DNA of 64,000 nucleotides from Agrococcus pavilionensis RW1 (GTDB lineage Bacteria; Actinomycetota; Actinomycetes; Actinomycetales; Microbacteriaceae): positions 1 through 64,000 of the forward strand of contig NZ_ASHR01000037.1 in assembly GCF_000400485.1 (NCBI RefSeq), in the 5' to 3' direction. The position numbers were made by a program, and so were the translations under genes. The notes beneath the pieces were generated by a model. The model made no database searches and was not told the origin of the DNA. It saw only the letters and a program-made list of their open reading frames with translations. Shown here one piece after another: positions 28,915 to 60,484 of the stretch. Numbering within the stretch: position 1 is the first letter of the stretch; each line of letters begins with the position of its first letter.

Positions 28915-28964
28915 CCGGCGCGCCGCGTCGGCGGCATTCGCTAGGGTGGCCTGTCGAGGCTCAG

Positions 28965-29015
28965 ACGTTCAAGGTCTGGTTCAGCCTCCGGATCGCTATG
29001 CTGAACGGCACTTGA
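28965..29015 (+). promoter_or_regulatory. garA-ftsR promoter with FtsR-like dyad
   Basis: On the minus strand 28984-28965 reads CTGAACCAGACCTTGAACGT, containing TGAA-N7-TTGA. It matches the motif upstream of the second merR gene at 16 of 20 bases. A strong -10 element TATGCT lies at 28997-29002. A weaker plus-strand copy, TGAA-N6-TTGA at 29002-29015, follows it. This arrangement suggests autoregulation by FtsR or its paralogue. Confidence 0.6.
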
Positions 29016-29055: not shown

Positions 29056-29511
29056 ATGACCGAGCACGACGGCCGCCAGCCCGGCCGCGACGGAGAGAGC
29101 ACCCAGTCGTGGGGTGACGACTACCGCGCGCAGCTCGCGTCGATGCTGTCCGGCACCACGCCCGAGGACCGCGAGGCGGTCGCCTCGCTGCCGTCGGGGT
29201 CGGCCATCCTCGTCGTCCGCCGCGGGCCCAACGTCGGCGCCCGCTTCCTGCTCGACCAGGACTCGACGATCGCGGGCCGGCACCCCGACGCCGACATCTT
29301 CCTCGACGACGTCACCGTCTCGCGCCGGCACGCGGAGTTCGCCCGCTCCGGCACGACGTTCGAGCTGCGCGACCTCGGCTCGCTCAACGGCACGTACCAC
29401 AACGGCGAGCGCGTCGAGCAGGCGGTGCTGCACGACGGCGCGGAGGTGCAGGTCGGCAAGTTCCGCCTCACCTTCTACCGCTCCCGCCTCGACCTCGAAC
29501 CGCGGCAGTGA
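29056..29511 (+). CDS. garA: FHA-domain protein, GarA/OdhI-like
   Basis: The 151-residue protein has a single C-terminal FHA domain (about 50-140) with the phosphothreonine-binding GRHP, SRRHAEF and NGTYHNG motifs. In mycobacteria and corynebacteria the orthologue (GarA/OdhI) inhibits 2-oxoglutarate dehydrogenase and is switched by PknB/PknG phosphorylation of an N-terminal ETTSVF motif. That motif is missing here, where the N-terminus reads GESTQSWGDDY. The call rests on the FHA domain and on ftsR following directly. GGAGGAAG precedes ATG 29056. Confidence 0.82.
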   Translation: MTEHDGRQPGRDGESTQSWGDDYRAQLASMLSGTTPEDREAVASLPSGSAILVVRRGPNVGARFLLDQDSTIAGRHPDADIFLDDVTVSRRHAEFARSGTTFELRDLGSLNGTYHNGERVEQAVLHDGAEVQVGKFRLTFYRSRLDLEPRQ

Positions 29512-30191
29512 GCGCGCAGGCGGCGAGGAAGGCTGCCGCCCTCCTCTCGATCGGCCAGGTGCTCGCGAAGCTCGGTCCCGAGTTCCCCGACCTGTCGCCG
29601 TCGAAGCTGCGCTTCCTCGAGGACCAGGGACTCATCTCGCCGCAGCGCACGCCCTCGGGCTACCGCAAGTTCGACGCGGCCGACGTCGAGCGGCTCCGCT
29701 ACATCCTCACGCTGCAGCGCGACCACTACCTGCCGCTCAAGGTCATCCTCAGCCACCTCGACGACATCGACGCGGGCCGATCGCCCCAGATCCCGGGCGC
29801 GAACGTGCGCCTCGAGGCGCCGTCGATCCTCGGCAGCGAGCGCCGGCTCTCGCGCAGCGAGCTGCAGGCGGAGGCGGGCGCCTCGAAGCAGCTGCTCGCC
29901 GACGCGATCTCGGCGCAGCTGCTGCCGGGCGCCGAGCCGTTCGGCGAGGCGGCGGTGCAAGCGCTCCGCTCGCTCGTCGAGCTGCAGCGCTTCGGCATCG
30001 AGCCGCGCCACCTGCGCGGCATGCGGCAGTCGGCGCAGCGCGAGGCCGCGCTCATCGAGTCGGCGCTCAAGCCGATGCGCGGCCGCCGCGAGACCGGCAG
30101 CCAGGCGAAGGCGGCCGAGACCGCGCGCGACCTCGCCGGGCAGATCCAGGCCGTGCGCGACCTGCTCACGCGCGACGCGCTCGGCGAGTGA
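29508..30191 (+). CDS. ftsR: MerR-family regulator FtsR
   Basis: The 227-residue protein has an N-terminal MerR winged helix (about 12-80, with SPSKLRFLEDQGLISP and PSGYRKF) and a long helical C-terminal half. Position after garA identifies it as the FtsR orthologue (Rv1828 in mycobacteria). Corynebacterial FtsR binds the ftsZ promoter and activates it. GTG 29508 overlaps the garA stop by four bases. The same window contains ftsZ with a candidate operator. Confidence 0.88.
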   Translation: MSAQAARKAAALLSIGQVLAKLGPEFPDLSPSKLRFLEDQGLISPQRTPSGYRKFDAADVERLRYILTLQRDHYLPLKVILSHLDDIDAGRSPQIPGANVRLEAPSILGSERRLSRSELQAEAGASKQLLADAISAQLLPGAEPFGEAAVQALRSLVELQRFGIEPRHLRGMRQSAQREAALIESALKPMRGRRETGSQAKAAETARDLAGQIQAVRDLLTRDALGE

Positions 30192-30290
30192 GCGCCCGCG
30201 CGTCCCGGCCGCGCGTCGGCGGCAGGGCGTAGACTCGACCCGACACGCCGCGCCGGTCGCAGGTTCCGCCGGGTCGGGGCGGCGGGTCGA

Positions 30291-30330
30291 TACGGTGGGC
30301 GACAACACTCAACCTCACCTTGAAGGTTGG
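30291..30330 (+). promoter_or_regulatory. promoter and operator of the second merR gene
   Basis: TACGGT at 30291-30296 is the -10 candidate. Just downstream, 30308-30327 reads CTCAACCTCACCTTGAAGGT, with TCAA-N7-TTGA and a nested ACCTTgAAGGT palindrome (30317-30327). The site would lie at the transcription start, which suits a repressor. It matches the ftsZ upstream motif at 16 of 20 bases. Confidence 0.6.
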
Positions 30331-30357: not shown

Positions 30358-30927
30358 ATGCGCGACGGCACCCGGGATGCAGACCAGGGCGGCACCACCC
30401 GCATCGACGCGGGCCTGCTCTTCACCGACGGGCTGCCGCAGGAGCACGACGCGGTCGGCTACAAGGGCTCGATCGCGGCCGACGCCGCCGGCATCACCTA
30501 CCGCCAGCTCGACTACTGGGCGCGCACCGGGCTCGTCGAGCCGTCGATCCGGCCCGCGCACGGCTCGGGCAGCCAGCGCCTCTACTCGTTCCGCGACATC
30601 CTCGTGCTCAAGCTCGTGAAGCGCCTGCTCGACACCGGCATCTCGCTGCAGCAGATCCGCGTCGCGATGCAGCAGCTCCACGACGCGGGCGTGCGCGATC
30701 TCACGCAGACGACGCTCATCTCCGACGGTGCGAGCGTCTACCTCTGCACCTCGCACGACGAGGTCATCGACCTCCTGAGCAACGGCCAGGGCGTGTTCGG
30801 CATCGCCGTCGGCCGCGTGCTGCGCGAGGTCGAGTCGCAGCTCATCGAGCTCGAGGGCACGCCCGTCGACGAGCGCCCCGTCGACGAGCTCGCCGCGCGC
30901 CGCGCGCGCCGCAGCCGCACCGCCTGA
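30358..30927 (+). CDS. MerR-family regulator (Rv1830-like)
   Basis: The 189-residue protein carries a MerR DNA-binding domain at about 36-105 (AADAAGITYRQLDYWARTGLVEP, SGSQRLYSF) and a short helical C-terminal part. It is the paralogue that in mycobacteria lies two genes after FtsR (Rv1830). Here it follows FtsR directly. ATG 30358 is preceded by GGAAGGGA. The dyad in its leader suggests it regulates itself or is regulated by FtsR. Confidence 0.86.
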   Translation: MRDGTRDADQGGTTRIDAGLLFTDGLPQEHDAVGYKGSIAADAAGITYRQLDYWARTGLVEPSIRPAHGSGSQRLYSFRDILVLKLVKRLLDTGISLQQIRVAMQQLHDAGVRDLTQTTLISDGASVYLCTSHDEVIDLLSNGQGVFGIAVGRVLREVESQLIELEGTPVDERPVDELAARRARRSRTA

Positions 30928-30959: not shown

Positions 30960-31156
30960 GAGTGGCGCCTCCCGCACGTGAGTGGCGCCTCCCGCACGTG
31001 AGTGGCGCCTCCCGCACGTGAGTGGCGCCTCCCGCAGGTGAGTGGCGCCTCCCGCCCCCGAGTGGCGCCTCCCGCCCCCGAGTGGCGCCTCCCGCAGGTG
31101 AGTGGCGCCTCCCGCGGGTGAGTGGCGCCTCCCGCGGGTGAGTGGCGCTTCGCCCC
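30960..31156. repeat. 20-base tandem repeat array between convergent genes
   Basis: Nine exact copies and one degraded copy of the 16-base unit GAGTGGCGCCTCCCGC occur at a strict 20-base spacing. The four bases between copies vary: ACGT three times, AGGT, CCCC twice, AGGT, then GGGT twice. The unit centre is the palindrome GGCGCC; ACGT linkers create CACGTG between units. The array fills most of the 326-base gap (30928-31253) between merR and parA, which holds no gene I can support. Confidence 0.92.
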
Positions 31157-59176: not shown

Positions 59177-59270
59177 CTTGTCCCGACCTGCGCCGACACA
59201 CCGAGTCGCTCCCGGCCGAGCGCCTCCGCCGCCCGTACCGTCGGAGCCGTCAGCATGAAGTGAGGAATTC

Positions 59271-59317
59271 TCTAAACTTCAACTAGAGGTTGAGAGTTCG
59301 ATCGAGGGGCCGGGACC
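59271..59317 (+). promoter_or_regulatory. ftsZ promoter with FtsR-like operator
   Basis: The minus strand from 59294 to 59275 reads CTCAACCTCTAGTTGAAGTT, containing TCAA-N7-TTGA. It matches the site before the second merR gene at 16 of 20 bases. TAAACT at 59273-59278 is the -10 candidate and overlaps it. GAGGGG lies before the GTG start. FtsR binding to the ftsZ promoter is established in corynebacteria; here it is inferred. Confidence 0.62.
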
Positions 59318-60484
59318 GTGACTTCCAACAACAACTACCTCGCCGTCATCAAGGTGGTCGGTGTGGGCGGCGGCGGCGTGAACGCCGTGAACCGCATGAT
59401 CGACCTCGGCCTGCGCGGCGTCGAGTTCATCGCCATCAACACCGACGCGCAGGCGCTGCTGCTCAGCGACGCCGACGTCAAGCTCGACGTCGGCCGCGAG
59501 CTCACCAAGGGCCTCGGCGCGGGCGCCGACCCCGAGGTCGGCCGTCGCGCTGCCGAGGACCACGCGGAGGAGATCGAGGAGGCGCTCGCCGGCGCCGACA
59601 TGGTCTTCGTCACCGCTGGCGAGGGCGGCGGCACGGGCACGGGCGGCGCGCCCGTCGTCGCTCGCATCGCCAAGAGCCTCGGCGCGCTCACCGTCGGCGT
59701 CGTGACGAAGCCGTTCTCGTTCGAGGGCCGCCGCCGCCAGGCGCAGGCCGAGGCCGGCGTCGAGGCGCTCAAGAACGAGGTCGACACGCTCATCGTCGTG
59801 CCGAACGACCGCCTGCTCGAGATCAGCGACATGGGCATCTCGATGGTCGAGGCCTTCGAGACCGCCGACCAGGTGCTGCTCGCGGGCGTGCAGGGCATCA
59901 CCGACCTCATCACGACGCCGGGCCTCATCAACGTCGACTTCGCCGACGTGAAGTCGGTCATGCAGGGCGCGGGCTCCGCGCTCATGGGCATCGGCTCCTC
60001 GCGGGGCGCCGACCGGGCGATCAAGGCGGCGGAGCTCGCCGTCGCGAGCCCGCTGCTCGAGGCCAAGATCGACGGCGCCCACGGCGTGCTGCTCTCGATC
60101 CAGGCGGGCAGCAACCTCGGCATCCACGAGACCTACGACGCGGCGAAGCTCGTGCAGGAGGCCGTGCACCCCGAGGCGAACATCATCTTCGGCACCGTCA
60201 TCGACGACACGCTCGGCGACGAGGTGCGCGTGACGGTCATCGCCGCGGGCTTCGACGGCGCCGGCCCGATCGCGAAGGACGACGACTCGGTCATCCGCAC
60301 CGCGGCGCGCACCGAGATGGGCCTGCGCGAGTCGTCGCACAGCGCCCCGAGCGCGCAGGAGGCGCCCGCCGAGCGACGGCCGATCCCGGCCCCGCCCGTC
60401 GCCGACCACCTCACCGGTCCCGTGCAGCCGCTCACCCAGGTGGACGAGGAGGAGGACGAGTTCCTCCCCGACTTCCTCCGCTGA
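59318..60484 (+). CDS. ftsZ: cell division protein FtsZ
   Basis: The 388-residue tubulin-like GTPase forms the division ring. The GTP-binding [12 protein letters not shown] signature is near 104-115, with [17 protein letters not shown] and T7-loop residues present. A variable linker of about 60 residues ends in the conserved tail DEFLPDFLR that binds SepF and other partners. GTG 59318 is behind a GA-rich ribosome binding site. Confidence 0.98.

Follow-up and report, generated by a model that had tools for sequence, protein, structure and literature searches.

Introduction

Within the 64-kb stretch of Agrococcus pavilionensis RW1 DNA analysed here (the window), ftsZ and a second MerR-type regulator gene (merR2), from which ftsZ lies about 28 kb further along, are preceded by similar short palindromic elements. 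This raises the question of which protein reads the two elements, and whether it is FtsR, whose gene is situated next to merR2.

Kraxner et al. (2019; PMC6683498) used ChAP-seq and gel shifts to show that Corynebacterium glutamicum FtsR recognises a 25-bp inverted repeat upstream of ftsZ, a gene that it activates (PMC6683498). Similar FtsR boxes were proposed in the ftsZ promoters of several Actinobacteria (PMC6683498, Fig. 6 legend). An FtsR operator at ftsZ is thus already known, such boxes in Actinobacterial ftsZ promoters having been published in 2019. The deletion phenotype in C. glutamicum goes beyond what ftsZ alone explains (PMC6683498, section 14), and further targets of FtsR are therefore wanted.

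According to our analysis, it is highly probable that FtsR would read the ftsZ operator and activate this gene, and would also read the boxes before merR2 and before a MinD-like/ParA gene outside the window; these two boxes are apparently new. In the literature searched, with most subscription journals outside it, no link between FtsR and a ResR/McdR-type regulator was found, and the available text of PMC6683498 names cg1633 as a neighbour only. As candidate targets of FtsR, merR2, itself a conserved regulator gene, and the MinD-like/ParA gene are concrete enough to be examined in harmless species.

Gene context of the regulators

The order garA-ftsR-merR is found both in the window (Table 1) and in named relatives. 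The ftsR product also gives a match to 5ydc, the structure solved for the C-terminal part of Rv1828. From the gene order, compared with that described in PMC6683498, merR2 is assigned by synteny to the ResR/McdR type; its product shares 99% identity with the Agrococcus lahaulensis counterpart. The core letters of the operator at ftsZ and the position of an FtsR-type gene beside garA/odhI are shared with the C. glutamicum system (PMC6683498). In C. glutamicum, however, ftsR and the second merR gene are separated by a nuclease gene (PMC6683498), whereas here the 166-bp gap leaves no room for one; outside the family, many named relatives have their matches to ftsR and merR2 about 700–1000 bp apart. 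Just past merR2, at 30970-31150, an array of ~20-base repeats (gagtggcgcctcccgc...) was seen by eye.

Table 1. Genes and predicted regulatory elements discussed in the text, with window coordinates
Feature	Position	Strand	Description
Weak FtsR-like site, garA leader	28964..28988	+	Score 11.7 vs 30.0 (ftsZ) and 23.8 (merR2); z 5.0; not counted as an operator
garA/odhI-type FHA gene	29056..29511	+	Directly before ftsR; FHA Pfam domain; NCBIfam OdhI 169 bits, below the cut-off of 200
ftsR	29508..30191	+	MerR-family regulator (Cg1631/Rv1828 type); NCBIfam equivalog NF050798, 247 bits, cut-off 150
GACAC element	30241..30248	+	CGACACGC; same letters as the WhiB2 box reported for the mcdR promoter of mycobacteria (PMC9040748)
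Predicted FtsR-type operator before merR2	30304..30328	+	AACACTCAACCTCACCTTGAAGGTT; 0 mismatches to AACNNTCAAN7TTGANNGTT
merR2	30358..30927	+	ResR/McdR (Rv1830/Cg1633) type by synteny (garA-ftsR-merR); MerR_1 Pfam domain
Predicted FtsR-type operator at ftsZ	59268..59298	.	31-bp imperfect palindrome, best core 59270-59296
ftsZ	59318..60484	+	NCBIfam TIGR00065, 407 bits, cut-off 295

The palindromic element before ftsZ

The first-pass annotation had singled out a 20-mer at 59275-59294, which reads CTCAACCTCTAGTTGAAGTT on the minus strand, as a candidate FtsR operator resembling a site before merR2 (30308-30327). The claimed identity of 16/20 bases is confirmed. When the window was simulated 30 times with a first-order Markov model, no 20-mer reached this value, the best match being 15. 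The dyad TCAA-N7-TTGA, reported for both sites, indeed occurs twice in the window, at these two sites, vs 0.02 occurrences expected.

The 20-mer lies inside the larger ftsZ element, in which symmetry was found in 20 of 27 columns at 59270-59296, in 20 of 31 at 59268-59298 and in 14 of 25 at 59274-59298. Since the best axis in the Agrococcus genome (59283) is situated 3 bp upstream of the dyad originally noticed, the element exceeds the 20 bases first given. The consensus of the family ftsZ leaders (AACTTTAAACCTCAAGTAGAGGTTGAAAGTT) is a 31-bp palindrome with 26/31 symmetric columns. Unlike the 25-bp repeat of C. glutamicum (PMC6683498), the element here is best described as a palindrome of 27–31 bp, and 19 bp lie between its end and the GTG codon with which ftsZ begins. 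The merR2 and ftsZ boxes are unlike each other in their central bases and also in their symmetry register, the former having 25–31 bp about one axis and the latter 27–31 bp about a shifted axis. A scan for consensus sigma-70 promoters at the two boxes revealed no promoter at either site, a result that speaks against the explanation proposed here.

Specificity of the motif

At the genome scale, the bare dyad TCAA-N7-TTGA is unspecific, with 5 places vs 6 for a reversed control; two of the five, at C4:34803 and C25:53416, fall within reading frames (by eye, an OppA-like and an rnpA-like one) and were taken as chance. With the longer 25-bp pattern AACNNTCAAN7TTGANNGTT, only the merR2 box (no mismatch) and the ftsZ box (one mismatch) were recovered from 2.88 Mb at up to one mismatch. 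One further place had two mismatches, and at up to three mismatches there were 7 places vs 2 for the reversed control, with three-mismatch places in C10, at C28:99546, in C32 and in C49. In the window, this last threshold gave 2 matches vs 0.09 expected. The genome-wide check that had been suggested gave an unspecific result for the bare dyad and a specific one for the 25-bp form. As had been anticipated, the motif can be read from the Agrococcus genome. An exact search of the family for ANNNTCAAN7TTGANNNT proved too blunt (64 places in 29/40 genomes vs 22 for the reversed control), at least 13 of the 64 places preceding ftsZ or the second merR gene by coordinates.

A matrix derived from three FtsR sites printed in PMC6683498 gave its highest score in the window at ftsZ (59274; 30.0) and its second highest at merR2 (30304; 23.8), the next locus scoring 12.6. 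This supports the earlier reading of the ftsZ site as an FtsR-type box and of merR2 as bearing a box of the same kind.

Conservation at ftsZ and co-occurrence with FtsR

Thirty loci per family gene were considered, namely those returned for 40 genomes, with weaker or missing matches outside the counts. Each leader was scored against its own mononucleotide shuffles (z). With the first matrix, 30/30 family ftsZ leaders carry the box, a score that is in-sample because the matrix was trained on these leaders. The sets were rescored with the published sites only: the box was then found in 29/29 scorable ftsZ leaders (one of the 30, shorter than 150 bp, was dropped) and in 0/29 control windows shifted 600 bp upstream, and the expected conservation in the ftsZ leaders of relatives is borne out.

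The box had also been placed at the ftsR promoter, which our results do not support: none of the 30 family leaders has it in the 300 bp before ftsR with either matrix. Before garA, a box at z > 2.5 was found in 2 of up to 30 family leaders, one of them the weak site of the window (28964-28988), the palindrome of which is largely kept in three Agrococcus genomes and lacks conservation in the family.

In the phylum sample (n = 197), FtsR was detected in 183 genomes (E <= 1e-15), a ResR/McdR-type protein in 99 (E <= 1e-25) and FtsZ in 195. The ftsZ leaders of 70 genomes were compared: 20 with FtsR and a ResR-type protein and 36 with FtsR only, these 56 being hand-picked so as to represent a range of families, plus every genome in which FtsR was missing at E <= 1e-15 (n = 14). 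At z > 3, the box was observed in 19/20, 26/36 and 1/14 of these leaders, respectively; at z > 4, in 17/20, 20/36 and 0/14; and with the published-sites matrix, in 18/20, 27/36 and 2/14. The difference between all FtsR-bearing and FtsR-less leaders (45/56 vs 1/14) has a Fisher p of 6e-7, and that between FtsR-only and FtsR-less leaders a Fisher p of 3.4e-5. The sole FtsR-less leader scoring at z > 3 comes from an assembly that is 90% complete (G096), and its genus-mate G073 has FtsR. Since the box is found in FtsR-only leaders and in nearly none of the FtsR-less ones, the ftsZ box follows FtsR across the phylum, without need for the second MerR protein. The lack of a recognisable box in 10 of the 36 FtsR-only leaders (z > 3) counts against our explanation.

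The box before the second merR gene

The merR2 box ends 29 bp before the ATG codon. It was found in 15/30 family leaders (shifted control, 0/30) and, in a set of 80 named loci (the top matches among at least 571 relatives), in 49/80 (shifted control, 0/80), a count that shifts between 49 and 50 for the same loci with leader length and shuffles. With the published-sites matrix, the respective values were 12/30 (control, 0/30) and, for the same 80 top matches, 45/80 (control, 0/79). The named loci are not independent, because 15 Arthrobacter and 9 Nocardioides are among them; counted by genus, the box is present in 19 of the 34 named genera represented in this set of top matches, including Arthrobacter, Nocardioides, Cellulomonas, Georgenia, Knoellia and Jiangella. 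It was found in 0/5 Microbacterium and 0/2 Nonomuraea loci of the same best 80 of at least 571, and in 4/20 leaders of the phylum sample (order, 3/4; f6, 1/4; f5, 0/4; f7, 0/1; f11, 0/7). The link to merR2 is thus patchy, the box being missing in 15/30 family leaders, in 31/80 named ones (best 80 of at least 571) and in 16/20 of the phylum sample, which speaks against our explanation. In three Agrococcus genomes, the arms of the box are kept and the changes inside it are confined to the centre.

It is unlikely that, with FtsR acting at ftsZ, the look-alike before merR2 is read by the second MerR protein, by both regulators or by another factor in this lineage; this reading overlaps with ours as far as the ftsZ site is concerned. 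The differences between the two boxes in centre and symmetry register speak for it, as does the fact that co-occurrence does not separate the two regulators at merR2. An attempt to tell them apart through FtsR-less genomes failed: the three such genomes with the gene have no box, and neither do four FtsR-bearing members of their own family (2 of the 7 leaders being short). Against this reading, 16 of 20 bases are common to both boxes, and the published FtsR sites find both.

Less probable still is control of both boxes by the second MerR protein, which would then autoregulate its own gene and also control ftsZ. It is a MerR-family protein whose gene carries the box, and autoregulation is common among MerR regulators, which counts in its favour. 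However, the ftsZ box is present in 26/36 FtsR-bearing genomes without a ResR-type gene (at E <= 1e-25, with weaker homologues possible), and published FtsR-type sites alone recover both ftsZ and merR2. Furthermore, nowhere in the window is the McdR motif AATnACAnnnnTGTnATT (PMC9040748) matched at up to three mismatches. A merely coincidental palindrome before merR2 is very improbable, for while the bare dyad is no more frequent genome-wide than its reversed control (5 vs 6) and the box is absent from half of the family, the 25-bp pattern exceeds expectation in the window (2 vs 0.09 at up to three mismatches), the box is present in 49/80 named leaders (best 80 of at least 571; 19/34 genera) vs 0/80 controls, and Agrococcus genomes keep its arms and vary its centre.

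An element with GACAC letters accompanies many of the merR2 boxes. In the window, it is situated 55 bp upstream of the FtsR-type box; the letters CGACACGC alone are not above chance in this GC-rich stretch (9 found vs 16.6 expected). GACACRC occurs somewhere in 30/30 family merR2 leaders, box or no box. At -5 to +20 of the box end, it was found in 33/50 boxed vs 3/30 boxless named loci (best 80 of at least 571), and in only 2/15 boxed family leaders; by genus, GACAC stands beside the merR2 box in 12 of the 19 box-bearing named genera. GACAC is also the motif of WhiA. In mycobacteria, cGACACGc represents the WhiB2 box of the mcdR promoter (PMC9040748). The locus resembles the mycobacterial McdR-WhiB2 loop (PMC9040748) in its gene type, by synteny, and may resemble it in the cGACACGc letters of its leader; it differs in that the McdR motif mismatches the boxes here; FtsR/Rv1828 is unnamed in the available text of that paper. 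If read by FtsR, the candidate merR2 box would connect FtsR with this loop.

Further candidate sites in the genome

A third FtsR-type box (C46:39303-39317, TCAACCAGAGGTTGA) lies outside the window, 58 bp before a ParA/MinD-like gene that is followed by scpA; a xerD-like gene ends ~0.6 kb upstream. In the family, the box was found in 10/30 leaders of the MinD-like/ParA gene (control, 0/30), or in 9/30 with the published-sites matrix (control, 0/30). At the order level, it was found in 3/29 leaders, two of them strong, or in 1/29 with the published sites only; this link is likewise patchy. The gene product resembles Rv1708, the helix IDLSAAEIQLVN of which (PMC10482377) reads IDLSAAEVHLVN in P0004. 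For Rv1708, a function as MinD and binding to ScpA have been reported (PMC10482377). The ParA/MinD-like character of the gene behind the third box and its position beside scpA are shared with the MinD homologue Rv1708/MSMEG_3743, whereas the available text of PMC10482377 mentions no FtsR control. A difference from C. glutamicum, which speaks against our explanation, is also apparent: cg1633 and parA/scpA genes are missing from the nine strongest FtsR peaks listed in Table 1 of PMC6683498, whereas here the second merR gene and the MinD-like/ParA gene carry a box.

An FtsR-like site with two mismatches (C28:216396-216420) is situated at the upstream end of an M23 peptidase gene. On this strand, a TAGGGT hexamer comes after it.

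Promoter hexamer and proposed mechanism

In the genomes with both FtsR and a ResR-type protein, a TTGACA/TTTACA hexamer precedes the ftsZ box by 1 bp in 11 of 18 scored leaders. TTGACAT was seen directly before the box in many leaders of this group (e.g., L207, L211 and L212). Since the hexamer stands 1 bp before the box outside the family, FtsR most likely adjoins the -35 hexamer. In M. tuberculosis, the Rv1828 site at ftsZ lies between -35 and -10 of promoter P1 (PMC6683498), which the 11/18 leaders with a hexamer directly before the box resemble. The Microbacteriaceae differ from it: TTGACA/TTTACA is nearly absent from their 30 ftsZ leaders, a CTGAG-type hexamer is found in 14/30, and the hexamer before the box in the Agrococcus window is GTGAGG. 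The presence of a TTGACA-type hexamer in only 1/36 FtsR-only ftsZ leaders and its near absence from the 30 family leaders count against our explanation.

We infer binding by FtsR, the direction of control at the new sites and the mechanism from these observations. An FtsR dimer would bind the palindrome at 59268-59298 and activate ftsZ, being placed in the promoter beside the -35 hexamer and probably distorting the DNA in the manner of MerR-type regulators. The degenerate hexamer of the Microbacteriaceae may render ftsZ more dependent on FtsR. Through the box at 30304-30328, the second MerR protein (ResR/McdR type) would be placed under FtsR, and through that at C46:39303 so would the MinD-like/ParA gene next to scpA. 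Most likely, as far as can be judged from sequence, FtsR activates ftsZ in the MerR style and sets the level of the second regulator. The supply of Z rings, the second regulator and chromosome segregation may in this way be tied together by FtsR, so that a single regulator would join several steps of cell division.

The distance from the merR2 box to the extrapolated start is 27–153 bp in Microbacteriaceae and about 160–280 bp in Arthrobacter and Nocardioides, and this difference between lineages indicates that the sign of control may differ. In C. glutamicum, repression of cop1 by FtsR was suggested, and the site there overlaps the promoter (PMC6683498).

A broader proposal is possible, if somewhat short of probable: in Micrococcales-type and some other Actinobacteria, FtsR would govern a small division regulon comprising ftsZ, the ResR/McdR-type gene through a composite of FtsR box and GACAC element (WhiB2/WhiA type), in part of the family the MinD-like/ParA-scpA operon, and here possibly the M23 peptidase gene. 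If this is true, FtsR, ResR/McdR and WhiB, which are known separately, would be joined in one circuit.

In ~30 phylum-sample genomes outside this class, two ResR-like MerR genes were seen (e.g., G087 C5, G139 C85 and G198 C4); in several of these, ftsZ and the weaker gene share a contig and are no more than about 25 kb apart.
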